Assembly (NCBI RefSeq): GCF_001435955.1
Contig: NZ_AYYT01000013.1
Span: 1-52,529 of the forward strand
Reading direction: 5' to 3'
Source of the DNA: Ligilactobacillus salivarius DSM 20555 = ATCC 11741
GTDB taxonomy: Bacteria; Bacillota; Bacilli; Lactobacillales; Lactobacillaceae
DNA length: 52,529 nucleotides
Positions within the stretch are counted from its first letter, which is position 1. The number at the start of each line of letters is the position of its first letter. The notes under the pieces were generated by a model. The model was not told where the DNA came from. It searched no databases and was given only the letters and a program-made list of their open reading frames with translations. Shown here one piece after another: positions 9,030 through 23,288 of this stretch. The position numbers were made by a program, and so were the translations under genes.

Positions 9030-9583
9030 AGTTTTGAAGTATAACGTATGAATGATAAAAGCCTTGTATTAGTGTAATTTGAAACTATCACACGTTTTGA
9101 GGACGTGACAAGGCATAGCAAAGTTAAGCTGTTCTTTGCAAAAAAAAGCTCTATTGGCTTTTAAAAGTTACGTCAAAAAAACAGCACATATAATCTCCTT
9201 GATTAATACATTAAAGCCCTAGATCCACATGATTTGAGTAGGTTACTTGTTTTTGAAAGCAAGCTAGGGTATAGGCAAGATGTAGGATTGATTATAATTT
9301 ATATTTAGTCAAAATTCAGTCAAAAAAATAGTAATGGCTACATCTTGCTGAACTAAAGATTTTGGATAGTAATGCCATTAAGTATTACAGTCCTACTATT
9401 TTTTAAATACAGGTTGCAAGGGAAAATAAAATTTGAGAGGACGTGAAACGACCTCACTTGCATATAATATTTCCGTTGTCTATACCTTGCAACAAGCCTT
9501 GTATCCACATGATTTGAGCTGGTCTTACGTTTTGAGGACGTAGCAAGGCATAACATGAAGTCGTTAAAAAACGGCTTTTTTAT
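9030..9583 (+). ncRNA. Large structured non-coding RNA (ROOL/GOLLD-class candidate)
   Basis: About 550 bases without a credible gene but packed with helices: GCCTTG/CAAGGC (9061/9109), GCAAAG/CTTTGC (9118/9134), CCCTAG/CTAGGG (9217/9264), an 11-bp perfect GCAAGATGTAG/CTACATCTTGC (9275/9338), a 9-bp perfect GTTGCAAGG/CCTTGCAAC (9413/9485), GAGG/CCTC (9437/9452) and GCCTTG/CAAGGC (9496/9544). Three of the domains are copies of one module with a GATTTGA strand and a hairpin loop TTTGAGG. The end is an intrinsic terminator. Long ornate RNAs of about this size are known from lactobacillus plasmids and phages (ROOL, GOLLD). Class membership is inferred from size, habitat and complexity, not from a model match. 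No clear promoter was seen. Confidence 0.65.
9558..9583 (+). terminator. Terminator of the large structured RNA
   Basis: AAGTCGTT, loop, AACGGCTTTTTT. The same kind of terminator ends the cassettes that follow, and the first cassette leader begins five bases later. Confidence 0.85.
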
Positions 9584-9587
9584 TTTG

Positions 9588-9806
9588 CCTAAAACCTTGT
9601 CTTCTACGGCGAGAAGTGTTAGTTCCGACCTCCTCCAACACTAACTAAACCCGCAAGCGGGAGGACTCCATTCAACTACGTTTCATTGCAAATGCACTTG
9701 ATAGCATATCTTAATCAGCATTACAAGGCAATCTAAAGCGGCAAGCCGTCCTGTGTAATGCTACTTAAGGTATGCTACCAAAGAAAATGTAAGCTACATT
9801 TTGATG
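9588..9806 (+). repeat. Cassette leader, copy 1 (structured leader / possible single-strand promoter)
   Basis: First full copy of the ~220-base leader. Conserved parts in order: GGCGAGAAGTGTTAG, TCCGACCTCCTCC, hairpin CCCGC-AA-GCGGG (9650-9661), GGAGGACTCCATTCAACTACG, then a long nested hairpin (TAGCATATCTTAA, GCATTACA, GGC-AA-GCC, TGTAATGC, TTAAGGTATGCTA) and a last hairpin AAAATGTA-AGC-TACATTTT. The ribosome site of the next gene follows directly. Confidence 0.85.
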
Positions 9807-9818
9807 AGGTGAAATAAC

Positions 9819-10532
9819 ATGAATAATAGTGTATATGTAAACGATAAAACAAAAAAATTCTTTAATGTGATAAATAATGAAGATTATGGGTATTTTGAAA
9901 TTAACATTTTAAAAGATGAAGGTTTTCATTTTATTGATTATTTTGATAATAAGGAAAAGAAAGCTATTTTAGATGAGATACACAGTTTATCAGTAGTAAA
10001 AATGATTAAACTGTTGAAAAAACTAGAGAATAAATGGAAACTTATGAAGAACTATCGGTTTAATCTAATGGAATCTAAGCTTGAATATTTGCAAGAATAT
10101 TATGATGAACCTGGCTATGAAATGGAATTTGATCAAGAAGACTTTTTATCATGGTTAAAAGAAGATTATCTACCAGACTGGTTTAATAGTATAGACTATG
10201 ATGATTTAGACATAATTCTTAGTTTTTTAAAAGAAAATACAGATAACTTTTATTATGAATTTCTAAGAGGATATGCTCAAGGTGATTATTGTTATGTTTG
10301 GAGTAATAATATTAACAATCAATGGAATCCTGACAGAGAATACATGGAGGATATTGCTTACAGTTCCTGGGTTAGTATTTGCGAAAGTAATGAAGAAGGA
10401 GAAATTGGGGAGGTGATAGAAGATGTACCAGGTTATTACTTAGCTTATGGTAGAGAAGATATTTATTTGAGTAAATACATGCAGAAAAAGTATGGTGCAA
10501 GACTAGCTAAAGAAAATATTTTGTATTATTAG
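9819..10532 (+). CDS. Acidic protein of unknown function, cassette 1
   Basis: A 237-residue, strongly acidic protein with ATG behind GAGGTGAAATAAC, 12 bases after the leader hairpins. It is rich in D, E, Y and W (DYLPDWFNSIDYDDLDIIL, YEFLRGYAQGDYCYVW). The GYxQGD segment recurs in plasmid and phage proteins of unknown role. There is no signal or membrane segment. Its acidity and position in a presumed leading region fit an anti-restriction or DNA-mimic role, but no known family such as ArdA is recognisable. It heads a four-gene cassette. Confidence 0.7.
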   Translation: MNNSVYVNDKTKKFFNVINNEDYGYFEINILKDEGFHFIDYFDNKEKKAILDEIHSLSVVKMIKLLKKLENKWKLMKNYRFNLMESKLEYLQEYYDEPGYEMEFDQEDFLSWLKEDYLPDWFNSIDYDDLDIILSFLKENTDNFYYEFLRGYAQGDYCYVWSNNINNQWNPDREYMEDIAYSSWVSICESNEEGEIGEVIEDVPGYYLAYGREDIYLSKYMQKKYGARLAKENILYY

Positions 10533-10557
10533 GATTTTTAATGGGGAGAGTTGATAA

Positions 10558-10824
10558 ATGAGTGAAACGATCGAATTAAATAATATTGCTCCTGAACAAA
10601 TTGAAAAATTAATAGATAGATATGAGAACAAATATTCATTTGATACTAATTGTTTTGTAGATTTTATTTATTATGGAGTAGATGAAAATATATTGGGTAG
10701 AAATCCTAAAAAATATACCATCATATTAAATGAAGAAGATAGTTATAAAATCATTTTGACCAATGATAGTGATGTTTGTAATGAATGGTACGATAAACAC
10801 TTTAAAGAATATATGGATAGGTAA
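10558..10824 (+). CDS. Small acidic protein, cassette 1
   Basis: An 88-residue acidic protein (starting MSETIELNNIAPEQIEKLID) behind GGGGAGAGTTGATAA. It appears to be an alpha/beta domain without motifs. It is probably translated from the same message as the preceding acidic gene. Confidence 0.6.
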   Translation: MSETIELNNIAPEQIEKLIDRYENKYSFDTNCFVDFIYYGVDENILGRNPKKYTIILNEEDSYKIILTNDSDVCNEWYDKHFKEYMDR

Positions 10825-10887
10825 TAATAATGAAATATGCTGTGATAATTCTTGTTAAAAATAGTAGTGAAAATATTATTATTTTAT

Positions 10888-10910
10888 TTGTACGCCAAAA
10901 GTTGTACAAT
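10888..10910 (+). promoter_or_regulatory. Promoter/operator of the RelB-type antitoxin gene
   Basis: TTGTAC occurs twice, at 10888 and 10902, and the second copy overlaps a -10-like TACAAT (10905-10910). Repeats over a promoter just ahead of an antitoxin gene are typical of autorepressed toxin-antitoxin operons. No good -35 is seen. Confidence 0.5.
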
Positions 10911-10928
10911 AGTAGAGAGGTGAGTGAT

Positions 10929-11192
10929 ATGGAAAATGGTAGAATTAATACTAGAATTAATAGTGATATTAAAATAAAAGCTGAAAAATATTTAGCTGAA
11001 CATGGATTAACTTTATCTGAATTTGTAAGAATAGCAGTTACAACTGTTGCTAATAATGGTTTACCTAATAATTGGGGGATTCCTTCACCTGAAATCAATC
11101 AATCTATTTTAGAAATGGTAGATGATTTAAATGATCCTAAGCTGAAACGAGCAAATAGTTTATCTGAATTGGAGAGCTTATTAAATGAGTGA
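10929..11192 (+). CDS. RelB/DinJ-family antitoxin
   Basis: An 87-residue protein starting at ATG 10929 behind AGAGAGGTGAGTG. The N-terminus is a ribbon-helix-helix: NGRINTRINSDIKIKAEKYL, then HGLTLSEFVRIAVTTVANNG, the classic RelB/DinJ pattern of beta strand plus two helices. Residues about 55-87 would wrap and neutralise a YafQ-type mRNA interferase. The gene overlaps the toxin gene by eight bases. An upstream in-frame extension from 10830 exists but lacks a ribosome site and would bury the repressor strand, so it is rejected. Confidence 0.85.
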   Translation: MENGRINTRINSDIKIKAEKYLAEHGLTLSEFVRIAVTTVANNGLPNNWGIPSPEINQSILEMVDDLNDPKLKRANSLSELESLLNE

Positions 11193-11549
11193 GGTTATTC
11201 CTACATCTAGTTTTAAAAAGCAGTTTAAAAAAGTTAAGAACAATCCTAGATGGAAAAAATATTTAATGGTAGTTTACCATTTAGTAATAAAAGTTCTTGG
11301 GATTATGTGATTAGTTCTTTTTTAAATGATACAGAATTGCCAGAGTATTTTTATGAGCATAAGATTACTTTAACAAAACAAGTAAAGAAACAAATTAAAC
11401 AGCGTTTAAAGAATAAAAACATTGAAGTTGCAGGACTAGATTTACATTTTGATGGTCACAACGGAGATCATCTATTAATATACTGCAGAATTTCAGAAGA
11501 AAAGTTAGTATACTTACTAGCTATCGGTACACATAGTGAGTTATTTTAA
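11185..11549 (+). pseudogene. YafQ-family toxin gene with a one-base frameshift
   Basis: ATG 11185 overlaps the antitoxin stop. Frame one encodes MSEVIPTSSFKKQFKKVKNN then PRWKK, the usual YafQ start. It then runs into unrelated codons and a stop near 11307. Another frame, open from 11250, continues the family pattern: VISSFLNDTELPEYFYEHKI, LDLHFDGHNGDHLLIYCRIS, and a GTHSELF end. Adding one A to the run of six A at 11254 would restore a toxin of about 118 residues. The toxin is therefore probably inactive, unless the A-run is a programmed slippage site or a sequencing error. The antitoxin remains intact. Confidence 0.8.
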
Positions 11550-11576
11550 AAGTCGTTGAAGAACGGCTTTTTTATT
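11550..11576 (+). terminator. Terminator of cassette 1
   Basis: AAGTCGTTGAAGAACGGCTTTTTT, an 8-bp stem and T run directly after the toxin remnant and directly before the next leader. Confidence 0.85.
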
Positions 11577-11579
11577 TTG

Positions 11580-11799
11580 CCTAAAATTCTATCTTCAACG
11601 GCGAGAAGTGTTAGCTCCGACCTCCACCTACACTAACTAAACCCGCAAGCGGGAGGACTCCATTCAACTACGTTTTCATTGCGTATGCACCTGATAGCAT
11701 AGCTTAAGCAGCATTACAAGGCGATCTAAAGCGGCAAGCCGTCCTATGTAATGCTACTTAATCTATGCTACCAAAGAAAATGTAAGCTACATTTTGATG
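11580..11799 (+). repeat. Cassette leader, copy 2
   Basis: Full leader. Apical hairpin GGC-AA-GCC, middle stem GCATTACA/TGTAATGC, outer stem TAGCATAGCTTAA/TTAATCTATGCTA, final hairpin AAAATGTA/TACATTTT. Start of cassette 2. Confidence 0.85.
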
Positions 11800-11818
11800 A
11801 AAGGTTAGGTAAATCATT

Positions 11819-12181
11819 ATGACAACATTAAAAGAAAGACAAGAACAACATGCATTGAAATTAGTAGAAATTATTACAGGTAAGAAACATAGTATCGAGC
11901 AACTAAAAGAAAACGTAGAAATCACGAAAGAATTTATAGATGTGTTCAATTTAAAGTTGGCTGATAAATTAAGTTCCGAAGGTAATTTATATTATGCTTG
12001 TCAGACGGGCTTTCCGTTCTTCAATATTTATGTAGTTTCTAAATATGAAGAAGATTTTGAAGAAGAACTGGCAAATGCTAAAGAAGGTTATTTGTGGGCA
12101 TATGTTTATAATTACGACAACCCAGGGCTTTCAGAATTTGGAACTATTAAAGTTGATAAAGATTTAAATAGAATTTACTAG
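11819..12181 (+). CDS. Acidic cassette protein, family A (copy 1)
   Basis: A 120-residue acidic protein starting at ATG in a TAAATCATT context without a strong ribosome site, except GAAAGGTTAGG about 10 bases upstream. It is helical at the N-terminus (TTLKERQEQHALKLVEIITG) and beta-rich at the C-terminus (FFNIYVVSKYEEDFEEELA, GTIKVDKDLNRIY). A close paralogue occupies 19750-20112, followed there by the same second gene, so the pair is a mobile two-gene unit. The function is unknown. Confidence 0.7.
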   Translation: MTTLKERQEQHALKLVEIITGKKHSIEQLKENVEITKEFIDVFNLKLADKLSSEGNLYYACQTGFPFFNIYVVSKYEEDFEEELANAKEGYLWAYVYNYDNPGLSEFGTIKVDKDLNRIY

Positions 12182-12198
12182 AAAAGGAATGAGTGAAA

Positions 12199-12462
12199 AT
12201 GAGTTGGTTAGAGTTTGTAACAGTTTTAGAAAATGCAAATGTAGGTATTAATGAAGATAATATTTGTGAGTATGAAGATGAGATATTTAACCATGTTCTA
12301 GCAAATTTTGACAATACTTTTCCCAAAGGAATTCTTATTCAACAAGAATTAGTGATTAATAAAATCAAGTTAGAGATAGAGTTTCCAGTAATACAGGGGG
12401 AGTTTGATACAGAACCCGGGAATATAAAAATTTTAAGAATTAATGGTAACAGAGTAAGTTAA
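12199..12462 (+). CDS. Acidic cassette protein, family B (copy 1)
   Basis: An 87-residue acidic protein. ATG 12199 is chosen over an upstream GTG because its paralogue at 20130 starts at the matching ATG. It begins MSWLEFVTVLENANVGINED and ends with FPVIQGEFDTEPG and ILRINGN, probably a small alpha/beta domain. Always following family A suggests the two products act together. Confidence 0.65.
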   Translation: MSWLEFVTVLENANVGINEDNICEYEDEIFNHVLANFDNTFPKGILIQQELVINKIKLEIEFPVIQGEFDTEPGNIKILRINGNRVS

Positions 12463-12487
12463 TTTTAAGGAAAAGTAAGGATACGCT

Positions 12488-12580
12488 ATGAATGTAATGG
12501 ATATTTTAATTAAATTGGATATTGAAGAAATTAAATATTTGCAGAAAAACAGGGAAGAAGTAAAACAACTAAGGGAATAA
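12488..12580 (+). CDS. Possible 30-residue peptide
   Basis: ATG 12488 behind TAAGGATACGCT opens a 30-codon frame (starting MNVMDILIKLDIEEIKYLQK), a charged helix. It has a fair ribosome site and lies between two genes of the same cassette. It may be real, or the remnant of a longer gene. Confidence 0.4.
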   Translation: MNVMDILIKLDIEEIKYLQKNREEVKQLRE

Positions 12581-12637
12581 ATTATTAAAGTAATATTGAT
12601 GGTTTATTAATTCAAATTCAAGGAGAATAACGTTATA

Positions 12638-13528
12638 ATGAATAGTAAAGAGAGAAAAAGGCTAAGTGAAGAAAAATGGCGAAAGGCAACATTTAAAGAC
12701 GGTGTAATTTTTGCTTGGGTAGTAGCAGATAATGAAGATATTTGTTTGAAGTTATTACAAATAATTTTACCAGAACTAAATATTGCTAATATTGTTAAAA
12801 TTCGAAATGAAGATAGTCGAAAGAAAAATAAAATTTTTCATGGAGTTAGGTTTGACGTTTTTGCCGAAGACGAACAAGGCAGAATGTATGATATTGAAAT
12901 GCAGATTGCCAACAATCATGATTTAGGACAGAGAATGTCTTATTATCAAAGTAATTTAGTCAGTCGTTCTGTTCGCCAAGGACAATCATTTGTCAGTAAA
13001 GTTGACACTTATGTTATCTTTATTTGCGATTTTGATTTTGGAAAGCAAGGTTTACCCAAATATACAACGAATCTAGTTATTAACGAAACAGGCGAAGTAA
13101 TAGATAATAAAGAACATAATATTGTCTTAAATATCAGAGCAAAAGATTTTTCAAGTCTAGGCTATGAAGTAAATGCGTTTTTGGAATATGTAAAAAGTAA
13201 TAAAATTAGTAATCAATTAACCAAGAATATTGATGATAAAGTAAAAGAACTTAAGAAAAGCACAGAAAGGAAGAAGAGTTACATGGTTTATGAACAAGAA
13301 TTATTAACAAGAGAATATTATGCTGAACAAAAAGGCTTACAAAAAGGCTTACAAAAAGGTAGAGAAGAAGGAAAAAAAGAAGGAAGAAAAGAAAATATTA
13401 TTGATTCTATCAAAAAATTAGATAGTCAAGGATATGACAAAAAACAAATTATTGATAGTATTACAGCTGTAACAGCTTTTACAGCAGAAGAAATTAGTCA
13501 ATGTTATGATGAAATCATGGTTAAGTAA
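12638..13528 (+). CDS. Rpn-family PD-(D/E)XK nuclease / transposase-like protein
   Basis: A 296-residue protein starting at ATG behind AAGGAGAA. The N-terminal part carries the PD-(D/E)XK nuclease pattern found in Rpn and PDDEXK-type 'transposase' proteins: KATFKDGVIFAWVV, then RFDVFAEDEQGRMYDIEMQ (about 70-88, with the catalytic D and ExQ). A long variable region follows, then a charged helix with short repeats (QKGLQKGLQKGREEGKKEG, about 232-252). Such proteins promote RecA-independent recombination or act in conflict with phages and plasmids. Being inside the cassette array suggests a defence or counter-defence role, which is inference. Confidence 0.75.
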   Translation: MNSKERKRLSEEKWRKATFKDGVIFAWVVADNEDICLKLLQIILPELNIANIVKIRNEDSRKKNKIFHGVRFDVFAEDEQGRMYDIEMQIANNHDLGQRMSYYQSNLVSRSVRQGQSFVSKVDTYVIFICDFDFGKQGLPKYTTNLVINETGEVIDNKEHNIVLNIRAKDFSSLGYEVNAFLEYVKSNKISNQLTKNIDDKVKELKKSTERKKSYMVYEQELLTREYYAEQKGLQKGLQKGREEGKKEGRKENIIDSIKKLDSQGYDKKQIIDSITAVTAFTAEEISQCYDEIMVK

Positions 13529-13540
13529 ATAAATATGTGA

Positions 13541-13572
13541 GTAAAAAGTCGTTAAAAAAAACGACTTTTTAT
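13541..13572 (+). terminator. Terminator of cassette 2
   Basis: AAAAGTCGTT paired with AACGACTTTTT, followed by the next leader after about five bases. Confidence 0.85.
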
Positions 13573-13576
13573 TTTA

Positions 13577-13798
13577 CCTAAAATTTCATCTTCAACTGCG
13601 AGAAGTATTAGCTCCGACCTCCTCCTATACTAACTAAACCCGCAAGCGGGAGGACTCCATTCAACTACGTTTTCATTGCGTATGCACTTAATAGCATAGC
13701 TTAAGCAGCATTACAAGGCGATCTAAAGCGACAAAGTCGGCCTATGTAATGCTACTTAATCTATGCTACCGAAGAAAATGTAAGATATATTTTGATGA
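13577..13798 (+). repeat. Cassette leader, copy 3
   Basis: Full leader. The apical hairpin is changed to GAC-AAA-GTC, where copies 1 and 2 have GGC-AA-GCC: a compensated pair change. The outer stem matches copy 2. Confidence 0.85.
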
Positions 13799-13813
13799 AA
13801 GTAGGTAATAAAC

Positions 13814-14359
13814 ATGAGTACAAATGCAATGATTTTTAAAATGGATAATAACAAGGTAAGGGGAATTTATTGCCATTGGGACGGATATCCAGACTATGTA
13901 GGAGCCATTTTAAGAGACTCTTATCAAAAACCTAGTAAAGTTGATAGTTTAATCAATTTAGGTGAAATTTCATCTTTAGGTGATGAGATATCTGTACACC
14001 CATTTGTAAAAAAATATGGTTTTGAATATTCAATGAGTGTGGAATACAAAAGACTAAGCGAATATGAGAAACAAGCCTTAAATAGTGAGCTACAAGAACA
14101 TACACTAGCCTATCACAGAGATAGGGGAGAAGATTTAAAAATAATGGAAATGACCGTTGAAGAATTTAGTAACAAATTGAAGAATGATAATTTCCCATAT
14201 TCAGGGCCTGTATATCTTTATTTAATGAAAGCTAATAAACTTAATCAATATGAGTGGGTTTATAGTGAACTAGAGTTTTTTGATGAGCTAGATTATCAAC
14301 TTTTAGGCAATGAATTTTGCAGTAGAGGTTCGTACTGGTCTTCTTTCAAAACTTTATAA
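13814..14359 (+). CDS. YCHWDGY-motif protein, cassette 3 (first identical copy)
   Basis: A 181-residue acidic protein starting MSTNAMIFKMDNNKVRGIYC. The segment GIYCHWDGYPDYVGAIL with a following LGEIS is a motif I associate with small phage and plasmid proteins of unknown function. There is no membrane segment. The gene sits alone between a leader and a terminator. It is followed by a perfect duplicate of itself, including the next leader. The function is unknown; location suggests early expression after transfer. Confidence 0.75.
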   Translation: MSTNAMIFKMDNNKVRGIYCHWDGYPDYVGAILRDSYQKPSKVDSLINLGEISSLGDEISVHPFVKKYGFEYSMSVEYKRLSEYEKQALNSELQEHTLAYHRDRGEDLKIMEMTVEEFSNKLKNDNFPYSGPVYLYLMKANKLNQYEWVYSELEFFDELDYQLLGNEFCSRGSYWSSFKTL

Positions 14360-14380
14360 ATTTAGTTGTTAGATAGAAGT

Positions 14381-14417
14381 AAGGGAGCTGCTATATTATG
14401 GCAACTCCTTTTTATTT
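14381..14417 (+). terminator. Terminator of cassette 3
   Basis: AAGGGAGCTGC and GGCAACTCCTTTTTA form a stem with a T-rich tail. Confidence 0.75.
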
Positions 14418-14419
14418 TT

Positions 14420-14640
14420 CCTAAAATTTTATCTTCTACGGCGAGAAGTGTTAGCTCCGACCTCCTCCTATACTAACTAAACCCGCAAGCGGGAGAACTC
14501 CATTCAACTACGTTTTCATTGCGTATGCACCTGATAGCATATCTTAAGCAGCATTACAAGGCGATCCAAAGCGACAAAGTCGGCCTATGTAATACTACTT
14601 AAGATATGCTACCGAAGAAAATGTAAGATATATTTTGATG
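14420..14640 (+). repeat. Cassette leader, copy 4
   Basis: Full leader with a perfect 13-bp outer stem, TAGCATATCTTAA/TTAAGATATGCTA, and apical GAC-AAA-GTC. It is identical to copy 5 up to about 15478. Confidence 0.85.
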
Positions 14641-14656
14641 AAAGTAGGTAATAAAC

Positions 14657-15202
14657 ATGAGTACAAATGCAATGATTTTTAAAATGGATAATAACAAGGT
14701 AAGGGGAATTTATTGCCATTGGGACGGATATCCAGACTATGTAGGAGCCATTTTAAGAGACTCTTATCAAAAACCTAGTAAAGTTGATAGTTTAATCAAT
14801 TTAGGTGAAATTTCATCTTTAGGTGATGAGATATCTGTACACCCATTTGTAAAAAAATATGGTTTTGAATATTCAATGAGTGTGGAATACAAAAGACTAA
14901 GCGAATATGAGAAACAAGCCTTAAATAGTGAGCTACAAGAACATACACTAGCCTATCACAGAGATAGGGGAGAAGATTTAAAAATAATGGAAATGACCGT
15001 TGAAGAATTTAGTAACAAATTGAAGAATGATAATTTCCCATATTCAGGGCCTGTATATCTTTATTTAATGAAAGCTAATAAACTTAATCAATATGAGTGG
15101 GTTTATAGTGAACTAGAGTTTTTTGATGAGCTAGATTATCAACTTTTAGGCAATGAATTTTGCAGTAGAGGTTCGTACTGGTCTTCTTTCAAAACTTTAT
15201 AA
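14657..15202 (+). CDS. YCHWDGY-motif protein, cassette 4 (second identical copy)
   Basis: The 181-residue product is identical to that of 13814-14359, residue for residue. The ribosome region (GATGAAAGTAGGTAATAAAC) is also identical. Two perfect copies raise dosage of this acidic protein, or mark a very recent duplication. An assembly artefact is less likely because the leader before copy 1 differs from the leader before copy 2. Confidence 0.75.
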   Translation: MSTNAMIFKMDNNKVRGIYCHWDGYPDYVGAILRDSYQKPSKVDSLINLGEISSLGDEISVHPFVKKYGFEYSMSVEYKRLSEYEKQALNSELQEHTLAYHRDRGEDLKIMEMTVEEFSNKLKNDNFPYSGPVYLYLMKANKLNQYEWVYSELEFFDELDYQLLGNEFCSRGSYWSSFKTL

Positions 15203-15223
15203 ATTTAGTTGTTAGATAGAAGT

Positions 15224-15260
15224 AAGGGAGCTGCTATATTATGGCAACTCCTTTTTATTT
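15224..15260 (+). terminator. Terminator of cassette 4
   Basis: Duplicate of the terminator at 14381-14417. Confidence 0.75.
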
Positions 15261-15262
15261 TT

Positions 15263-15484
15263 CCTAAAATTTTATCTTCTACGGCGAGAAGTGTTAGCTC
15301 CGACCTCCTCCTATACTAACTAAACCCGCAAGCGGGAGAACTCCATTCAACTACGTTTTCATTGCGTATGCACCTGATAGCATATCTTAAGCAGCATTAC
15401 AAGGCGATCCAAAGCGACAAAGTCGGCCTATGTAATACTACTTAAGATATGCTACCGAAGAAAATGTAAGATATATTTTTGATG
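15263..15484 (+). repeat. Cassette leader, copy 5
   Basis: Identical to copy 4 except for one extra T in the last hairpin arm, after which the sequence diverges into the next gene. Confidence 0.85.
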
Positions 15485-15500
15485 AAAGCAGGTAATAAAT

Positions 15501-15788
15501 ATGGAACGCTTGAAATTAGGTGGTGTAGCTGGTCGCCATGAAATACCAGAAGTCGTAGGTTTTGTTTTAGATAAGGTTGAAGATCCAGGAAATATCAATA
15601 AAATAACAGCTGATGTAATTGCTAGCTTAGACAAGCAAGATTTAAGTCAGGGGCTAGATTTATACGTAACAGGTTTAACATCTGTTACTGTTGCAGTGAT
15701 TAAATACTGTTTTGACAATCATATTCCGTTAACTTGTTTCCATTTTGACGTGATTACAAAAACATATATACCGCAAGTAGTCTTATAA
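15501..15788 (+). CDS. Small Rossmann-like protein (GRHEIP / VTGLTSV motifs), cassette 5
   Basis: A 95-residue protein starting MERLKLGGVAGRHEIPEVVG. Later it has DLYVTGLTSVTVAVIKYC and FHFDVITKTYIPQ. A strand, then a Gly-Leu-Thr turn, a helix and a second strand make a half-Rossmann pattern. This loosely recalls phage and plasmid proteins with an N-terminal GRHxxP and a GLTxxxxxxxI segment, and it has some resemblance to nucleotide-sensing CARF-like folds. The resemblance is by eye only. A role in countering nucleotide-signalling defence would fit the neighbourhood but is speculation. Confidence 0.65.
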   Translation: MERLKLGGVAGRHEIPEVVGFVLDKVEDPGNINKITADVIASLDKQDLSQGLDLYVTGLTSVTVAVIKYCFDNHIPLTCFHFDVITKTYIPQVVL

Positions 15789-15805
15789 AAAGAGGTGTAA
15801 ACGAT

Positions 15806-16147
15806 ATGAGTTATGAATATGAAAGTTATAATAATTTAAATCAATTGAAGAAAATAGATCCTAAATTAGCTGATGAGTTAGTTTGGTATGCTTGGAATAA
15901 AGAATGGAAAAACGAAAACCTTATGGTTTTTCCTAATGGTGTTGAGTTTGCTAAGTATGAGTTAGAAGATGGTTGGTATGTAGGAATAGGGCTAAAAAAA
16001 GAAAACACTGATTATAGAGGCGCACCTAATCCATTTAACTATATTGATTATGAGAGATTAGCAAATGATTTAATTGAAAGTTGGGACAGATCATTACATT
16101 ATGAGAGCAATGAAGGGAAAATCGTACTTACATCATACAGATTTTAA
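15806..16147 (+). CDS. Acidic cassette protein, family C (copy 1)
   Basis: A 113-residue protein behind AAAGAGGTG, net charge about -7 by count. It begins MSYEYESYNNLNQLKKIDPK and includes VFPNGVEFAKYELED and YERLANDLIESWDRSLHYES. Both ends align with the next gene (MSYE, YxNLxxLxK, V(F/Y)P, EFAK/DFAK, ADGLIE/ANDLIE, YES), so they are tandem paralogues. It is probably cotranscribed in cassette 5. Confidence 0.65.
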   Translation: MSYEYESYNNLNQLKKIDPKLADELVWYAWNKEWKNENLMVFPNGVEFAKYELEDGWYVGIGLKKENTDYRGAPNPFNYIDYERLANDLIESWDRSLHYESNEGKIVLTSYRF

Positions 16148-16162
16148 AGGAGAAAGCTAAAT

Positions 16163-16447
16163 ATGAGTTATGAGTCAACAGTATACGATAATTTAAGTGA
16201 GTTAGAAAAAGCAGAAACAAAGTTAGCACAAGAATTAGTAGAGTATGAAGAAAGTTTTGAAAAATACAGGAGTCAAGAGTGGAAAACAATGGCTATCGAA
16301 GTTTATCCAACTAGAGAAGATTTTGCTAAGGGTCAAGGCGAAGATGAAAGCTTGGCTGATGGTTTAATTGAAGAACTAGACGAGATGTACAATTACGAAA
16401 GCCCAGATGGTCGAGTAATACATACAGAAGGTGCATTTTATATTTAA
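16163..16447 (+). CDS. Highly acidic cassette protein, family C (copy 2)
   Basis: A 94-residue protein behind AAAGGAGAAAGC. By direct count it has 25 acidic and 8 basic residues, a net charge near -17. It is a shorter paralogue of the preceding gene (MSYESTVYDNLSELEKAETK, VYPTREDFAKGQGEDES, ADGLIEELDEMYNYESPDG). Such charge density is typical of DNA-mimic proteins such as ArdA or Ocr that block restriction enzymes. No direct homology is visible. Confidence 0.65.
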   Translation: MSYESTVYDNLSELEKAETKLAQELVEYEESFEKYRSQEWKTMAIEVYPTREDFAKGQGEDESLADGLIEELDEMYNYESPDGRVIHTEGAFYI

Positions 16448-16475
16448 CTATAACAAAAATTAAGGAGAGAGTATT

Positions 16476-17186
16476 ATGGCAAATATATCAACAGCATTTG
16501 GAAGAATGTATATTGACAGAACATTTTATGAAAAAAATAGAGAATTAATAGATAACTGGATTGATTTTTACCAAACTCCGCAAAAATATGAATGGTATGG
16601 TTTTTCTTACGTAGAAGTAGAAGAATTAACAGAAGATGAGTTATGGTTGAGATTTAATGGAGAAGGTCGCTGGAACTGGGCAGATACATTGAAGTATGTA
16701 TTTGCTAGTGATGATTTTGAAAGTCAATTTAATCCCTATAAAAAGCAATTGACACAAAAACTATATGAAGCTAGTCAAAATATATTAATGGAATACGTGG
16801 ATTATGAACCAGGTTATGAAATATTAGTTGAAAGAGAGGTTAATTTACAAGTTGAAAAATATAATGATAAGTACGAAACAAGTATGGTAATAAATTATGA
16901 TATTGATCTAGAATATAACGATTACAATAAAGTTATGTGTGGAGTAGAAATAGGTTACAAGTTAGATGATTTAGAAGAAGTAGAAGCATTGCAGGAACAT
17001 TTAATGGCATTTTACGAAGAAAATAAGGAAATGATACGAGAAAAAAATTTCAGATCATTTAGTAAAGATGTTATGAGATACATCAAAGAAGACAAAAAAT
17101 TAAATAAAGGAATATGTGTATTTCGTCTAAATGACGATCCAGGTATGTTTCTAGAAGATATGGAGGAAAGTTTAAAGATTGCATAA
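16476..17186 (+). CDS. Acidic protein of unknown function, cassette 5
   Basis: A 236-residue acidic protein behind AAGGAGAGAG. It has WYGFSYVEVEELTEDELWL, then RFNGEGRWNWADTLKYV (the GxGRW segment may be a family signature) and a helical, acidic C-terminal half. It is the last gene of the four-gene cassette 5, followed by a terminator. The function is unknown. Confidence 0.65.
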   Translation: MANISTAFGRMYIDRTFYEKNRELIDNWIDFYQTPQKYEWYGFSYVEVEELTEDELWLRFNGEGRWNWADTLKYVFASDDFESQFNPYKKQLTQKLYEASQNILMEYVDYEPGYEILVEREVNLQVEKYNDKYETSMVINYDIDLEYNDYNKVMCGVEIGYKLDDLEEVEALQEHLMAFYEENKEMIREKNFRSFSKDVMRYIKEDKKLNKGICVFRLNDDPGMFLEDMEESLKIA

Positions 17187-17198
17187 GATATTTTATTT

Positions 17199-17224
17199 AA
17201 AGAGCTACTAAGCTCTTTTTATTT
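17199..17224 (+). terminator. Terminator of cassette 5
   Basis: AAGAGCT, loop ACTA, AGCTCTTTTTATT. Confidence 0.85.
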
Positions 17225-17226
17225 TA

Positions 17227-17443
17227 CTCAAAATTCTATTTTCTACGGCGAGAAGTGTTAGCTCCGACCTCCTCCAACGCTAACTAAACCCGCAAGCGGG
17301 AGGACTCCATTCAACTACGTTTTCATTGCGTATGCACCTGATAGCATATCTTAAGCAGCATTACAAGGCAATCTAAAGCGACAAAGTCGGCCTATGTAAT
17401 ACTGCTTAATCTATGCTACCAAAGAAAATGTAAGCTACATTTT
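17227..17443 (+). repeat. Cassette leader, copy 6
   Basis: Full leader with apical GAC-AAA-GTC, middle stem with one mismatch (TGTAATAC), and final hairpin AAAATGTA/TACATTTT. Start of cassette 6. Confidence 0.85.
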
Positions 17444-17463
17444 AAAGGTAGGGAGTAATTTAT

Positions 17464-18123
17464 ATGAGAAGATTTATAGATACAATCAACAAAGAGATTT
17501 TAGTAGTCGTGGAAGAAATGGATTTTGCAGATAATTTTGCATGTAAATTAAATAGTCAAGGTGTGTATGTAGTTACAAATGAATATCCTAGTTATTCAAG
17601 TGGTGCATTTGGAGATATATACAGTGCGGTTATGGATATTATAAATAGTGCTGGAAAAATGGAATATTATGATTATTTCGTTCAACCAAGTAAGGAAAAA
17701 TTAAAGGAAGTATGGAGTAGATATAACCATAATCAGAAAAATAAGCCTTATGACGAAAAACTAGCAAGAAATTTTTATTATGAAGATTGCCTTAGTGAAG
17801 TATTAACTGATGATGACCATGATTTTTTACAATGGTTAACTAACAAAAATAAGGTTTTTACGTACATTACAGTAACAGATGGTTGGGATTTTGTAGATTT
17901 AATCGAATACCACCCACAACGCAAGAAAAACAAATTATTAGCAGATATAGATTACTTAGAAAAAGTATTTTTTAATGAATGGTACACATTAGTTACGGAA
18001 GATTTTAGAGTTGAAAAAGAGAAATTTAGCTTAAATAACGAATCTGAATTAACTCAATATATGTTAAATAAGTATCACGCAGTAGAAATTCCTGAAATAG
18101 ATATTAAAAAGGTAGGCGAGTGA
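17464..18123 (+). CDS. Protein of unknown function, cassette 6
   Basis: A 219-residue acidic protein behind AGGTAGGGAGTAATTT. Segments include RRFIDTINKEILVVVEEMDF, YSSGAFGDIYSAVMDII and VFTYITVTDGWDFVDLIEY. It is a soluble alpha/beta protein with no recognised motif. Its stop overlaps the next gene's ribosome region, indicating coupled translation. Confidence 0.65.
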   Translation: MRRFIDTINKEILVVVEEMDFADNFACKLNSQGVYVVTNEYPSYSSGAFGDIYSAVMDIINSAGKMEYYDYFVQPSKEKLKEVWSRYNHNQKNKPYDEKLARNFYYEDCLSEVLTDDDHDFLQWLTNKNKVFTYITVTDGWDFVDLIEYHPQRKKNKLLADIDYLEKVFFNEWYTLVTEDFRVEKEKFSLNNESELTQYMLNKYHAVEIPEIDIKKVGE

Positions 18124-18125
18124 AA

Positions 18126-18449
18126 ATGACAAAATTAGAAAAGGTATTACAAACTCTAAATAACAACGGTGTAACACTCTTAGAATTTTACGGTTACAGT
18201 ACAAAAGATGAAGATTTTGAACAAGATCAAACGTATCAAGAAGAATATAACTTTTTATTTGACCTTGTTGTCAAAAAAATTGAAAAAGATTTAAATAAAG
18301 GTTTTATCGAATATGGATTAAGTCTAGTGTGGTTTTTAGCAAATAAAGACAATACTTGGTGTGTCTTACTTAGGACGGATAATAATGATTATTATATCCA
18401 AATTAACGATATTCTAACTGGAAGAAAATATTTAGAACAAATTCAATAA
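18126..18449 (+). CDS. Small acidic protein, cassette 6
   Basis: A 107-residue acidic protein. ATG 18126 is preferred to GTG 18120, which lies inside the preceding stop region. It begins MTKLEKVLQTLNNNGVTLLE and has FGYS-free polar segments ending in YYIQINDILTGRKYLEQIQ. It is probably cotranscribed with both neighbours. The function is unknown. Confidence 0.6.
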   Translation: MTKLEKVLQTLNNNGVTLLEFYGYSTKDEDFEQDQTYQEEYNFLFDLVVKKIEKDLNKGFIEYGLSLVWFLANKDNTWCVLLRTDNNDYYIQINDILTGRKYLEQIQ

Positions 18450-18466
18450 AAAGGCAGGCAATAAAT

Positions 18467-19471
18467 ATGATTACGGTAAACGAATTACAAAATTTCTTAG
18501 AAGATAATGAAAGACAAATTTTAGCAATGGATCGCATGAATTTATTGAAGATTAATGCGATTGATGAAGAAACTGGTGTAAATATACCAGGGATAAGTTA
18601 CATTTGTTGTGTAGATTGGCCTGTAGGAGTAACACCATTTAGCCAATATAGCTGCAGTGATGGAACAGATTTATTAGGTATTTACGATAAGGAAAATAAG
18701 AAGCTTTATCACAAGAGAATAAATTCACTTATTTTAAATGATGAATTAAAAAGTGTTGTAGATGGAATAGGATCTATTAATTTTAAGAATCTTTATAGGT
18801 TAGTTGTAAAAGAAGTTGATAATATCCTACAAAAAGAATACCAATCCCTAAGAGTTCAAAAGCAGATTGAAAATTACAACTATAAAAACAGTGATTTTAA
18901 GGAATCCTTTATAGAACAAAGAATTGAAATCTTTTTTGAAAAAGGTATAAAAGTTTATGGAGAAACAAAAGAATATGAACTTAGGTTAACAGCGTATGAT
19001 TACGCAAAGCTTATTAGTGACAAAAAATATGCGAAAGATTTGGCTATGAGATATTTATTTAATAAACCTGAATACAGAGATGTAACAAATTTTGAAGTAA
19101 ATATTGAAGCTTATATCTACAGACAAGCAAAATTAAATTTCTACAGAAATATTAATTTAAATGATGATGACAAGAAATTGTTGAGCCTTTTCAAAGGAAT
19201 ATCCGAAGCTAATAATGCTCGTACTGTAAAAATTGAATATCAACAAGGCAATAAATCAACTGAAATAACAGTAAATGTAGATGAAATTAGACGAAGATAT
19301 GATCATTCTGATGGATACAGTTTTAGTGAGTATGTAATTACGACAATGAAAGCAACAGATAAATTTTATAAAGATTTTAAAGATGAAGAAGATAATCGTT
19401 TGGGGCATATCTTGCTTAAGGGTATTAAAAAAGTTAAATATGGAAGAAAGGTATTATTTGAAGAAAAATAA
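18467..19471 (+). CDS. Protein of unknown function, cassette 6
   Basis: A 334-residue soluble protein behind AAAAAGGCAGGCAATAAAT. The N-terminal part has several cysteines (ISYICCVDWPVGVTPFSQYS), and the C-terminal half is helical and charged. No catalytic motif was recognised. It is the largest product of the array apart from none other above 300 residues, and it closes cassette 6. Confidence 0.6.
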   Translation: MITVNELQNFLEDNERQILAMDRMNLLKINAIDEETGVNIPGISYICCVDWPVGVTPFSQYSCSDGTDLLGIYDKENKKLYHKRINSLILNDELKSVVDGIGSINFKNLYRLVVKEVDNILQKEYQSLRVQKQIENYNYKNSDFKESFIEQRIEIFFEKGIKVYGETKEYELRLTAYDYAKLISDKKYAKDLAMRYLFNKPEYRDVTNFEVNIEAYIYRQAKLNFYRNINLNDDDKKLLSLFKGISEANNARTVKIEYQQGNKSTEITVNVDEIRRRYDHSDGYSFSEYVITTMKATDKFYKDFKDEEDNRLGHILLKGIKKVKYGRKVLFEEK

Positions 19472-19481
19472 ATCAATTAAT

Positions 19482-19508
19482 AAAGGGCTACTAAGCTCTT
19501 TTTTATTT
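19482..19508 (+). terminator. Terminator of cassette 6
   Basis: AAAGGGCT, loop ACTA, AGCTCTTTTTTATTTT, related to the terminator at 17199. Confidence 0.85.
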
Positions 19509-19510
19509 TG

Positions 19511-19730
19511 CCTAAGATTCTATTTTCAACGGCGAGAAGTGTTAGTTCCGACCACCTCCTATACTAACTAAACCCGCAAGCGGGAGGACTCCATTCAACT
19601 ACGTTTTCATTGCGTATGCACTTGATAGCATATCTTAACCAGCCTTACAAGGCGGTCTAAAGTAGCAGAGCTATCCTTGTAAGGTTGTTTAAGCTACGCT
19701 ACTTAAGAAAATGTAAGATATATTTTGATG
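19511..19730 (+). repeat. Cassette leader, copy 7 (most diverged full copy)
   Basis: Full leader with changes that keep the fold. The middle stem becomes a perfect CCTTACAAGG/CCTTGTAAGG and the apical hairpin TAGC-AGA-GCTA. These two-sided changes are strong evidence for selected base pairing. Confidence 0.85.
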
Positions 19731-19749
19731 AAAGGTCAGGTAAATCATT

Positions 19750-20112
19750 ATGACAACATTAAAAGAAAAACAAGAACAACATGCTCTCAAGCTGATAGAA
19801 ATCATTACAGGTAAAAAGTACGATATCAAAGAATTGAGAGAGAATGAAGAAATTACAAAAGAATTTATAGATGTATATGATACACGACTAGCTAAAAGAT
19901 TAAGTTCGGAAGGGAATTTATATTACGCCTGTCAAACAAGATTCCCATTCTTCAACATTTTTGTAGTATCTAAGTATAAAGAAGATTTTGAAGAAGAACT
20001 AGCAAACGCTAAACAAGGCTATTTGTGGGCATATGTTTATAATTACGACAACCCAGAGCTTTCAGAATTTGGAACTATTAAAGTTGATAAAGATTTAAAT
20101 AGAATCTACTAG
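19750..20112 (+). CDS. Acidic cassette protein, family A (copy 2)
   Basis: A 120-residue paralogue of the product of 11819-12181. The last 25 residues are almost unchanged while the middle differs (KKYDIKELRENEEITKEFID). The start context is the same. It begins cassette 7 and is followed again by the family B gene. Confidence 0.7.
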   Translation: MTTLKEKQEQHALKLIEIITGKKYDIKELRENEEITKEFIDVYDTRLAKRLSSEGNLYYACQTRFPFFNIFVVSKYKEDFEEELANAKQGYLWAYVYNYDNPELSEFGTIKVDKDLNRIY

Positions 20113-20129
20113 AAAAGGAATGATTAGAA

Positions 20130-20396
20130 ATGAATTGGTTAGAATTTGTTACTACTTTAGAAAATGCAGATATTGGTATCACAGAAGAAAATATATGCGA
20201 TTATGAAGATGAAATATTTAATTATATACTAGCAAATTTTGATAGCACGCACCCTAAAGGCTCAATAGTTAAGGAGACGTTGATAATTAATAAAAATAAA
20301 ATAGAACTAGAATTTCCAGTAATACAAGGAGAGTTTGATACAGAGCCAGGAAAAGTAACGATTTTAAGAATTAATAATAAAAAAGTAGGTATGTAA
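20130..20396 (+). CDS. Acidic cassette protein, family B (copy 2)
   Basis: An 88-residue paralogue of the product of 12199-12462 (starting MNWLEFVTTLENADIGITEE, with FPVIQGEFDTEPGKV near the end). It lies behind GAAAAGGAATGATTAGAA. It is the last gene of the array before the non-coding transfer-origin region. Confidence 0.65.
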   Translation: MNWLEFVTTLENADIGITEENICDYEDEIFNYILANFDSTHPKGSIVKETLIINKNKIELEFPVIQGEFDTEPGKVTILRINNKKVGM

Positions 20397-20416
20397 TGTA
20401 TGGTGTAAAATTAAAT

Positions 20417-20449
20417 AAGGTTGCTGCAAAAATTGTAGTAGCCTTTTTA
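20417..20449 (+). terminator. Terminator of cassette 7
   Basis: GGTTGCTGC pairs with GTAGTAGCC through several G-U pairs, followed by TTTTTATTTT. Confidence 0.75.
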
Positions 20450-20455
20450 TTTTGT

Positions 20456-20560
20456 CCCAATTTCATCTTCTATAGCGAGAAGTGTTAGTTCCGACCTCCT
20501 TCTACACTAACTAAACCCGCAAGCGGGAGGATTCCAGTCAACTACGTTTCATTACAAATA
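20456..20560 (+). repeat. Truncated cassette leader, copy 8
   Basis: The first half of the leader is present (GAGAAGTGTTAG, CCGACCTCCT, CCCGCAAGCGGG, AACTACGTTTCATTACAAAT). The long hairpin half and any cassette gene are lost. It marks the eroded end of the array. Confidence 0.8.
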
Positions 20561-21911: not shown

Positions 21912-22102
21912 CTTACTTTTTTCTTTCGCTAAAGTAAAAAAGTAAGACAAAAAAGAAAGGCGTCTGTCAACATCACGAAATATAAAATTTCTATTTTTGA
22001 CGATTTTCGAATAAATTGCCATTTTTAAGCCAATTTATTCGAAAAGAGCATAAGGGAAACTTCTACCAACTACGTTGGTAGCCTGATAGTATCAGGGTTT
22101 CC
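21912..22102. other. Candidate origin of transfer (oriT)
   Basis: Four strong dyads lie within 190 non-coding bases: CTTACTTTTTT/AAAAAAGTAAG (21912/21936, 11 bp), TTTTCGAATAAATTG/CAATTTATTCGAAAA (22004/22031, 15 bp), CTACCAAC-TAC-GTTGGTAG (22063-22081) and CCTGATA-G-TATCAGG (22082-22096). The last two lie side by side inside flanking GGAAAC/GTTTCC, a cloverleaf-like arrangement. The place is between the cassette array and the relaxosome operon. The nic site is not identified. Confidence 0.55.
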
Positions 22103-22136
22103 GTTGTCCCCAAATTTTCTCGCTACGCTACTAAGT

Positions 22137-22485
22137 ACTACCACAGTATACTACCAAATACAACCATGATACTACCATTTACTACCATGTAATACTACCA
22201 AGTGCAACCATGATACTACTATTTACTACCATGCTACACAACCAAATACTACCACGCACTACCAAACACTACCATTGTTAAAATTGTATCACTACCATCT
22301 ACTACCACTGTTTACTACCATTTACTACCTCTACACTGTTATTTACTACCATTCAATACAACCAAGTACAACCATGCACTACCAAACACTACCATACCTT
22401 AAAATGTAGCACTACCATCTACTACCACTATTTATTATATATTTACTGCTATTTACAACCACATAATACTGTTGTTTACTACCAT
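22137..22485 (+). repeat. ACTACC iteron field
   Basis: By eye, 19 exact ACTACC words, mostly ACTACCA, and several CAACCA variants lie within 350 bases, many spaced 10 or 11 bases or a multiple apart. That is one face of the helix. Two ribbon-helix-helix genes follow at once, so this is likely a binding array for one of them: a relaxosome accessory site, a centromere-like partition site or a replication control site. Confidence 0.75.
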
Positions 22486-22576: not shown

Positions 22577-22612
22577 GACTTTAAACTATAAAAAGTGAGA
22601 GTGATTTTAACA

Positions 22613-22942
22613 ATGAAAATTAGTAATAAAGAGTTGAAAATTAGAGGACTTTCCTCAGAAGAAATTGCACAATTAGATATCATAGTAAAGAAGGAGAATT
22701 ACAGTTCTAGGAATGAATTTTTATTGAATGAGATTCGAAAAGTGATTCAAGGAAATTATAAATCAAATGAAGAAGAAATTTTAACAACATATTTGAAAGA
22801 AATTATTGTTACTAATAAAGAGTTAACCAAAAACTTAAAACATGTGTTGGAATCAAAAGAGAAGTTATTAGACGAAATTGATAAATTATCAGAAAAATAT
22901 GCCAGATTTTTAGAATATACAGATGAAGAGGGTAGAAATTAA
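22613..22942 (+). CDS. Ribbon-helix-helix relaxosome accessory protein
   Basis: A 109-residue protein. ATG 22613 is chosen over the GTG six codons upstream. The N-terminus (KELKIRGLSSEEIAQLDIIV, then NYSSRNEFLLNEIRKVI) fits a ribbon-helix-helix of the MobC-like accessory type, with a DNA-contacting strand around residues 5-11. The rest is a coiled coil. It begins the relaxosome operon directly after the iteron field, which makes it a good candidate to bind there. Confidence 0.7.
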   Translation: MKISNKELKIRGLSSEEIAQLDIIVKKENYSSRNEFLLNEIRKVIQGNYKSNEEEILTTYLKEIIVTNKELTKNLKHVLESKEKLLDEIDKLSEKYARFLEYTDEEGRN

Positions 22943-22943
22943 G

Positions 22944-23288
22944 ATGCAAATAAATATAAAGAATATTCCAGAGGAAATATTGTCTGCTCTAAAGTTACAA
23001 GCTAAGGAAAGTAAAGCAGCTAATTTTTCTCAGTATATTATCGAAATTTTCAGATCAGCAATCGTTAATAATGGATTATCAATTTATGATTCTGAACTAG
23101 CAAATTTAGCTGTTGAGATTAAGAAACAACAAGCAAAAGTTACTCAATTTTTGACAGAAGAAAATATTGATAATCTTCGAATTATGGAAGAACTAAAAAT
23201 AGTACAGGATTTGGTTGAAGGTTGGATTGAATTTGATACTATTTCAGAAGTAATGGCTGAGGGTGAGCAGGGTAATGAAAAAGAATAA
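22944..23288 (+). CDS. Second ribbon-helix-helix protein
   Basis: A 114-residue protein starting at ATG 22944, one base after the previous stop. MQINIKNIPEEILSALKLQA plus NFSQYIIEIFRSAI is an Arc/CopG-like ribbon-helix-helix, and the remainder is helical and acidic. Two such proteins in tandem suggest a mixed complex on the iterons or oriT. Its last bases overlap the next gene. Confidence 0.7.
   Translation: MQINIKNIPEEILSALKLQAKESKAANFSQYIIEIFRSAIVNNGLSIYDSELANLAVEIKKQQAKVTQFLTEENIDNLRIMEELKIVQDLVEGWIEFDTISEVMAEGEQGNEKE

Follow-up and report, generated by a model that had tools for sequence, protein, structure and literature searches.

The 52,529-bp contig NZ_AYYT01000013.1 of Ligilactobacillus salivarius DSM 20555 (C5 among the 62 contigs of a 1.98-Mb genome; the whole contig is called the window below) carries an array of gene cassettes headed by folded leaders of about 220 nt, and the cassettes all point to an origin of transfer (oriT) that has the sequence features of the MobL family. 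The fold of the leaders has been maintained through compensatory changes and, in a comparison calibrated on T-box leaders, does not behave like the fold of an RNA. We propose, with about an even chance of being correct, that the leaders are single-strand promoters comparable to Frpo of F-type plasmids, that they lie in the leading region of a conjugative plasmid of MobL type, and that they serve its establishment in a new host.

A repeat search located seven full copies and one half copy of the leader between 9.58 and 20.55 kb, in agreement with an earlier description of this DNA made from the letters alone (the sequence-only reading). The 106-nt 5′ part is present in eight copies sharing 85-100% identity with the reference copy, with starts at 9578, 11570, 13567, 14410, 15253, 17217, 19501, and 20444; the longer unit occurs in seven copies. 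A search of the organism's own genome returned the same eight copies and additional ones on two other contigs, C21 (332-548) and C24 (1298-1403, which is without the long hairpin, and 1-44, truncated by the contig end). The leaders, located by the repeat search, and the cassettes that follow them are:

9588..9807, plus strand: leader copy 1 (also found in the own-genome search)
9819..11549, plus strand: cassette 1, coding for proteins of 237 and 88 amino acids (aa), a RelB-like antitoxin (10926-11192), and a YafQ-like toxin (11250-11549, match below cut-off)
11580..11800, plus strand: leader copy 2, long hairpin at about 11692-11772
11819..13528, plus strand: cassette 2, 120 aa, 89 aa, and a PDDEXK_2 (Rpn-type) nuclease (12638-13528)
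13577..13798, plus strand: leader copy 3
13814..14359, plus strand: cassette 3, 181 aa, phrog_1987 (a family with no function assigned)
14420..14641, plus strand: leader copy 4
14657..15202, plus strand: cassette 4, the same 181-aa protein as in cassette 3
15263..15485, plus strand: leader copy 5
15501..17186, plus strand: cassette 5, 95 aa, 113 aa (weak ArdA match), 94 aa, and 236 aa
17230..17443, plus strand: leader copy 6
17464..19471, plus strand: cassette 6, 219, 109, and 334 aa, no assigned function
19511..19731, plus strand: leader copy 7
19750..20396, plus strand: cassette 7, two genes (120 and 88 aa) paralogous to genes 1 and 2 of cassette 2
20444..20553, plus strand: half leader, 5′ module only

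Every full copy lies immediately 5′ of a gene start. A terminator scan placed terminator-like sites immediately ahead of five leaders (9557, 11548, 17199, 19482, and 20417), and ahead of the remaining three a terminator-like sequence was recognized by eye only, being absent from the scan list. The sequence-only reading had set each leader between a terminator and the next gene; each full copy is followed by a gene set and the half leader is not. The 5′ module comprises GTTAGT...ACTAAC, a loop that opens with TCCGACC, CCCGCAAGCGGG, and ACTCCATTCAAC, and the 3′ module is a long imperfect hairpin that ends near AAAGAAAATGTAA and a ribosome-binding site. Since the half copy and the C24 copy carry the first module only, the two modules can part. 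One leader-cassette unit was duplicated in tandem at 13577-15262 (843 bp; units 13577-14419 and 14420-15262).

The alignment of the copies showed that the apical stem is GGC-AA-GCC in copies 1-2, GAC-AAA-GTC in copies 3-6, and TAGC-AGA-GCTA in copy 7, where the stem GCATTACA/TGTAATGC is also replaced by CCTTACAAGG/CCTTGTAAGG. All these changes had been named before as signs of a selected fold, and in the long hairpin seven pairs were changed on both sides and remained standard pairs over the eight sequences compared (the seven window copies and the C21 copy). Because the stem changes are compensatory, the fold itself, not the sequence alone, has been maintained. Copy 2 folded more stably than its dinucleotide shuffles, with a z of -3.41 as RNA and of -4.25 as minus-strand DNA. 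For the leader, no Rfam family was matched at gathering level (chance-level microRNA-type matches only, best E 0.26), blastn against plasmids and phages gave no match, pLS20 included, exact leader patterns had no match in viral and genome contig collections, which may omit records near this genome, and when 26 genomes of the genus, this one included, were searched with its DNA, it was found in its own genome only.

Relatives were found through the cassette genes. All the plasmid records matched by cassette genes (12/12 and 10/10) were from Ligilactobacillus, including two L. salivarius megaplasmids, and the plasmid backbone of the window also matches L. salivarius; together with its salivarius-1 RNAs (Rfam), these matches place the window in or near Ligilactobacillus. 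In CP104730.1, the gene triplet of window 15806-17159 is 77.6% identical, with a match that begins exactly at the start codon, and is preceded by a leader of different sequence. These last three genes of cassette 5 (113, 94, and 236 aa) are also found in L. salivarius megaplasmids with the other leader type ahead. The triplet is shared and the leaders differ; therefore, each plasmid lineage seems to have its own leader type and the cassettes travel between lineages. The second type, referred to as the salivarius leader, was found in 18 copies in CP104730.1 and seven in NZ_CP102520.1; the 19 distinct sequences among these 25 were aligned and showed seven stem pairs with changes on both sides. 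Both arrays share homologous cassettes with the window and a leader of about 220-240 nt with a 5′ hairpin whose loop starts with TCCG, a long 3′ hairpin, and AAAGAAAATGTAA before the gene. They differ in that the salivarius leader has no full-length blastn match to the window leader and in that the array is on the opposite side of oriT. The salivarius leaders had no Rfam match at gathering level (best chance-level E 0.041) and no match in a DNA search of the 26 genus genomes, and we found no published name for these arrays in the literature searched, which did not include the JCM1046 genome paper. In CP104730.1 (L. salivarius H1), the array is partly doubled (45-58 kb and 288-301 kb) and oriT is present twice, which suggests a cointegrate.

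To determine which strand folds, we took advantage of the fact that where an RNA has a G.U pair the opposite strand has an A.C mismatch, and vice versa. Stems maintained as RNA should therefore decay to G.U, and those maintained on the antisense strand should decay to A.C. Fold asymmetry was measured with DNA energies against composition-matched shuffles and calibrated on T-box leaders of the same genome, 18 of 21 of which were oriented by a motif rule and three dropped (an earlier rule oriented only four). The T-box sequences included flanks of some 50-120 nt and the leaders had no such flanks. The sense fold was favored in 16 of the 18 T-boxes and the antisense fold in two (mean z +0.96), and their mismatches were 23 G.T and 2 A.C. 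The same method was applied to EGeRS1, a set of five folded leaders each located ahead of a putative establishment operon in pLS20 (PMC8708921). The sample consisted of 30 loci of 32 places, 29 of them distinct, with energies calculated in two batches (11 and 18). The antisense fold was favored in all 29, with a mean z of -3.29 and a margin of 7 to 28 kcal/mol, and one-by-one mismatches were A.C over G.T by 8:1 in distinct columns and 33:4 in cells. The EGeRS1 copies that fold on the antisense strand lie at 44.0-54.2 kb of pLS20 (L052) and in other EGeRS1 plasmids, an observation that touches a mechanism left open in the published work. As a yardstick for Frpo we used the stretch that precedes ssb in an F-type plasmid, which we take to contain Frpo on the basis of Samuel et al. 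(PMC11541004): two of six overlapping windows had z values of -3.24 and -1.94, and the other four were between -1.27 and +0.54.

The leaders of the window type (the seven copies and that of C21) favored the antisense fold in six of eight cases, with a mean z of -0.3, and differed from the T-boxes (p 0.008). Their A.C:G.T mismatches were 5:2 in columns and 11:2 in cells, the columns differing from the 2:23 of the T-boxes (p 0.002). The salivarius leaders, with an energy mean of -0.1, were also unlike the T-boxes (p 0.003). When both types were pooled, changes that make A.C exceeded those that make G.U by 24:12 in paired columns, compared to 37:47 in unpaired ones (p 0.029), an excess carried by the salivarius leaders (16:6). 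Because copies within one plasmid are related, all these p values are guides only. By this test, the fold of the window leader is not RNA-like and leans to the antisense strand, weakly in the window alone.

The direction of the cassettes acquires meaning with respect to oriT. All the cassettes of the window point right, toward the site at 22,044-22,115. The sequence-only reading had them running toward an oriT-like region at 21.9-22.1 kb, and this can be identified as a genuine MobL-type oriT by the combination of a relaxase, a three-way hairpin, and the core CTTATGCTCTT:

22044..22054, minus strand: oriT core CTTATGCTCTT of the MobL family and likely nic (match to the pWBG749 core, PMC4652767)
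22054..22115, minus strand: three-way hairpin 5′ of the core (by folding)
22127..22410, no strand assigned: direct repeats rich in ACTACCA, next to oriT on the side of its hairpin (repeat search)
22595..23288, plus strand: genes of two small proteins, probably accessory to the relaxosome, that match ribbon-helix-helix profiles weakly and below cut-off
25101..27497, plus strand: MobL/MobP2 relaxase (profile match, E 3e-45)

The core bears a likeness to the RP4-type nic (TATGCTC versus TATCCTG). The sequence CTTATGCTC was present in nine of the nine MobL regions first examined, and the three-way hairpin was on the 5′ side in 14 of 15 cores, a count that leaves out hairpin-less decamer matches; in record L054 the core has one change and the hairpin is less clear. 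Hairpin-less TTATGCTCTT matches at 45719 of NZ_CP066338.1, 68229 of NZ_CP035396.1, 78747 of pBS72, and 25708 of pLS20 were not counted as oriT, and further matches, outside this comparison, occur at 6389 of NZ_CP042291.1, three times in NZ_CP017108.1, and at 54006 of NZ_CP054832.1. Compared with six other MobL plasmids, the window, CP104730.1, and pMP1046A have their oriT in inverted orientation with respect to mobL; inverted sites were seen at 22044-22115 of the window, near 19643 of L018, and near 24170 of L019.

In pWBG749 and its relatives, nic was delimited genetically to 16 bp that include the core, the DNA beyond the core on its downstream side was dispensable, clones lacking it being mobilized too, and it is given as a rule that a hairpin sits 5′ of nic (PMC4652767). 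With this polarity, the minus strand of the window would be transferred moving left, and the cassettes would therefore enter first and as template, as the sequence-only reading had predicted. This polarity is also consistent with the rule on the hairpin. The half leader is 1.5 kb from the core and leader copy 1 about 12.5 kb. Furthermore, the leader-led genes have the core strand as their template in all eight plasmids with leaders and a hairpin-bearing core: the window, CP104730.1, NZ_CP102520.1, pLS20, pBatNRS213, NZ_CP026611.1, NZ_CP066338.1 (typed non-mobilizable), and pBS72. The independent cases are fewer than eight because three are pLS20-type relatives and two are from L. salivarius. 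The EGeRS1 plasmids examined were seven of 45 records, two of which, typed MOBQ and having no hairpin-bearing core, were left out.

Taken together, these observations are compatible with the following pathway. The array would form an establishment regulon within the leading region of a conjugative plasmid of MobL type, and each leader would act as a folded single strand. The minus strand would enter the recipient from the core at 22.05 kb, leftward, and the cassettes at 20.4 to 9.8 kb would be among the first DNA to arrive, with the entering strand serving as template. Local double-stranded DNA, from which the host RNA polymerase could start, would then be provided in each leader by the long hairpin, and transcription would proceed into the gene behind the leader in the direction of oriT, as it does at Frpo, up to the synthesis of the second strand. 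The strand polarity at nic, the promoter activity, the timing, and a contribution of the products to plasmid settlement are the parts of this pathway that we infer.

Several points weigh against this proposal. The first concerns polarity: the study of pLS20, the MobL prototype, mapped nic in vitro on the strand opposite to the core strand (PMC5313138), about 40 nt downstream of the core as counted on the sequence. This position and the core mapping in pWBG749 do not fit a single conserved oriT. If the pLS20 nic were carried over to the window, the cassettes would enter last and as the coding strand, a result that the sequence-only reading had named as contrary to its own model. Transfer of the plus strand was the initial idea, taken from the pLS20 nic; it was set back by the pWBG749 core mapping and keeps some likelihood. 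In the left-out EGeRS1 plasmid NZ_CP035396.1, the hairpin-less TTATGCTCTT is in the opposite relation to the leader-led genes. In the two L. salivarius plasmids, the leader-led genes point away from the near oriT, and their arrays would enter late under the same core polarity: the core of NZ_CP102520.1 is at 158.7 kb and its array at 163.7-175.0 kb (5 kb from oriT), and CP104730.1 has cores at 264.6 and 507.3 kb and arrays at 28-58 and 288-301 kb (24 kb or more away). The strand test was also not uniform. The salivarius leaders were mixed, with A.C:G.T of 1:3 in columns and 4:10 in cells by the mismatch method also used on the window, and 9:3 in columns but 14:23 in cells by the alignment method; in the window alone, the paired columns (8:6) did not differ significantly from the unpaired ones (19:19), the mean energy z was the -0.3 already given, and copies of one plasmid are not independent. 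The authors of the EGeRS1 study consider a single-strand promoter highly unlikely, because EGeRS1 are long, no promoter was seen in their fold and, chiefly, the nicked strand is the non-template one (PMC8708921). This dismissal rests largely on the in vitro nic strand, which is at odds with the conserved oriT core.

The promoter search belongs to the same side of the balance. No sigma-A promoter above chance was detected in the leaders, and the promoter scan returned 67 sites, with 71.5 expected in shuffles. The best minus-strand match in all seven full window copies was a candidate located on the non-template arm of the minus-strand hairpin, TTGTAA followed by 17 nt that include TGC and then by TATCAA, TATCAG, or TATTAA. 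In copy 2 it reads as follows:

11691..11719, minus strand: candidate hairpin promoter, TTGTAA (11719-11714), 17 nt, TGC-TATCAG (11696-11691)

A paired-duplex filter kept the candidate in copies 1-4 and 7 and, with 18 nt, in C21. It has about four of six consensus bases per hexamer and, by eye, is slightly better than the same place in duplex; TTGTAA-17-TGCTATCA was no better than shuffles and the final T of the -10 is missing. Some salivarius leaders have TTGTCA-15-GATAAG with TG ahead. We make no claim of a promoter from these sequences.

The nature of the cassette products is the last of these points. The acidic character attributed to them was borne out, since the isoelectric point was below 5.5 in 14 of 17 distinct products and in seven of 29 other plus-strand open reading frames, a comparison set picked by hand. 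The genes behind the leaders, described as unrelated, mostly are, with the exceptions that cassettes 3 and 4 share the 181-aa gene and that cassettes 2 and 7 open with paralogues. An anti-defense role, also proposed in the sequence-only reading, found little in its favor and is not established by the matches obtained: RelB and the Rpn-type nuclease were matched, YafQ and ArdA were below the cut-off (for ArdA, three of eight members of the 113-aa family, best E 0.0056), and two proteins fall in phage families of unknown function. Profile searches gave no credible match for the remaining products, a PDB sequence search for remote homologues of three cassette families found nothing credible, and a profile scan of genome contigs with the 236-aa protein produced 53 pattern matches and 0 relatives. 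On the other side, ssb (about 4.3 kb) and parM (about 5.7 kb) are among the plus-strand genes downstream of the C21 leader (332-525); a leader with ssb downstream of it is thus found on C21, and not within the window. Overall, the observations of the sequence-only reading were reproduced and its interpretation was supported in part: the RNA-unlike fold and the C21 copy favor a Frpo-like promoter, the lack of a visible strong sigma-A promoter does not, and this remains the best single explanation, with the chances evenly divided for and against.

An unlikely alternative is that the leader acts at the RNA level. As a cis-acting attenuator or insulator within the 5′ untranslated region of each unit, it would halt upstream read-through, with the block lifted in the recipient or by a factor of the plasmid. 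The position just before the ribosome-binding site and the z value of copy 2 as RNA are consistent with it, as is the finding that the 215-bp 3′ part of EGeRS1-B in its native orientation stops read-through in B. subtilis (PMC8708921). The strand test opposes it: the fold asymmetry of both leader types was unlike that of T-boxes, changes to A.C exceeded those to G.U in stems, the antisense fold was better in every EGeRS1 copy, and neither leader type belongs to an Rfam family at gathering level. The lean to antisense folding and the many copies adjoining oriT could also be explained if the leader were a single-strand initiation site (ssi/sso type), where the folded strand is primed on entry by RNA polymerase or primase so that second-strand synthesis can begin, with gene expression only a secondary effect; Frpo itself was reportedly described, in a title by Masai and Arai from 1997, as promoter and primer site. 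We consider this improbable, as priming alone would not require each full copy to be directly upstream of a gene start and one or two sites would suffice. That the leaders are mainly recombination handles, or repeats homogenized by gene conversion, for cassette shuffling is very improbable given the compensatory stem changes, even if leader types are uniform within and different between plasmids, cassettes are shared with a triplet match from the start codon, and tandem duplicates lie 843 bp apart.

Returning to single-strand promoters, a broader proposal can be made tentatively, with a probability somewhat short of even: MobL plasmids of Gram-positive bacteria may have sequence-unrelated families of such promoters (the window leader, the salivarius leader, and EGeRS1, the clearest case) that fold on the strand being transferred and turn on arrival genes ahead of second-strand synthesis. 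This would imply that the transfer polarity of pLS20 needs to be turned round. The evidence that is new beyond the window is the antisense folding of EGeRS1 together with a core polarity that makes the antisense strand the transferred one; no prior statement of EGeRS1 antisense folding on the transferred strand was found in the literature searched. Little has been established about the way in which conjugative plasmids of Gram-positive bacteria turn on establishment genes in a new host, and the published case with folded leaders that we found has no mechanism assigned. If the proposal is true, single-strand promoters are not confined to Gram-negative plasmids, leader repeats offer a homology-free route to arrival and counter-defense genes, and a large family of relaxases has its direction of transfer corrected. 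Comparing G.T with A.C in stems, with calibration on T-boxes as in the strand test used here, is a cheap way to separate single-strand DNA elements from RNA leaders.

The window also holds a topoisomerase gene (37335-39509), an AAA+ protein, a TrbC/VirB2-type pilin, and a 2,427-aa open reading frame. C21 and C24 are probably parts of the same plasmid because they carry leader copies and genes collinear with an L. salivarius megaplasmid. Transposase-like open reading frames, recognized by eye near contig ends (window 737-1811, minus strand; L116 8986-10389), may account for the distribution of the plasmid over several contigs. Five plus-strand copies of the Rfam salivarius-1 RNA (RF03030) occur in the window at 9061, 9216, 9496, 27598, and 28526, three of them just before the leader array. 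On the reverse strand of C24 1297-3460, an RloB-like gene comes after an AAA ATPase gene (both named by eye) and is in turn followed by a leader without long hairpin that precedes an Rpn-type nuclease gene; AAGGTAGC/AGCTACC repeats lie between units.

Among known systems, the oriT of the window is closest to that of pWBG749-type MobL/MOBMG plasmids, with an identical 11-nt core and a three-way hairpin common to both (PMC4652767); the difference is that the oriT of the window, like those of CP104730.1 and pMP1046A, is inverted with respect to the relaxase gene. With the Frpo/ssi elements of F-type and IncI plasmids, the array shares multiple folded leaders adjoining oriT, one copy upstream of ssb (on C21), and, by the core polarity, genes on the template strand that point at oriT. 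It differs in its weak -10/-35 elements, the Gram-positive host, and the MobL relaxase. The closest published system is EGeRS1 of pLS20. EGeRS1 measure 420-750 bp compared to about 220 here, lie 16-26 kb from the core in pLS20 compared to 1.5-12.5 kb in the window, have a strong antisense-fold signal where that of the window is weak, and show no blastn match to the window leaders. The window leaders do not reach >60% sequence identity to EGeRS1, and the search for EGeRS1 plasmids returned 44 Bacillus records and one from Paenalkalicoccus. EGeRS1-B is described as having no promoter activity as chromosomal double-stranded DNA (PMC8708921). Both systems have a MobL relaxase, an oriT core strand that is the template, and no evident sigma-A promoter, and in both several long, similar folded leaders stand directly before the ribosome-binding sites of variable establishment operons. 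The architecture that characterizes EGeRS1, several folded leaders each placed directly before a variable operon with no evident promoter, is thus the one found in the window.

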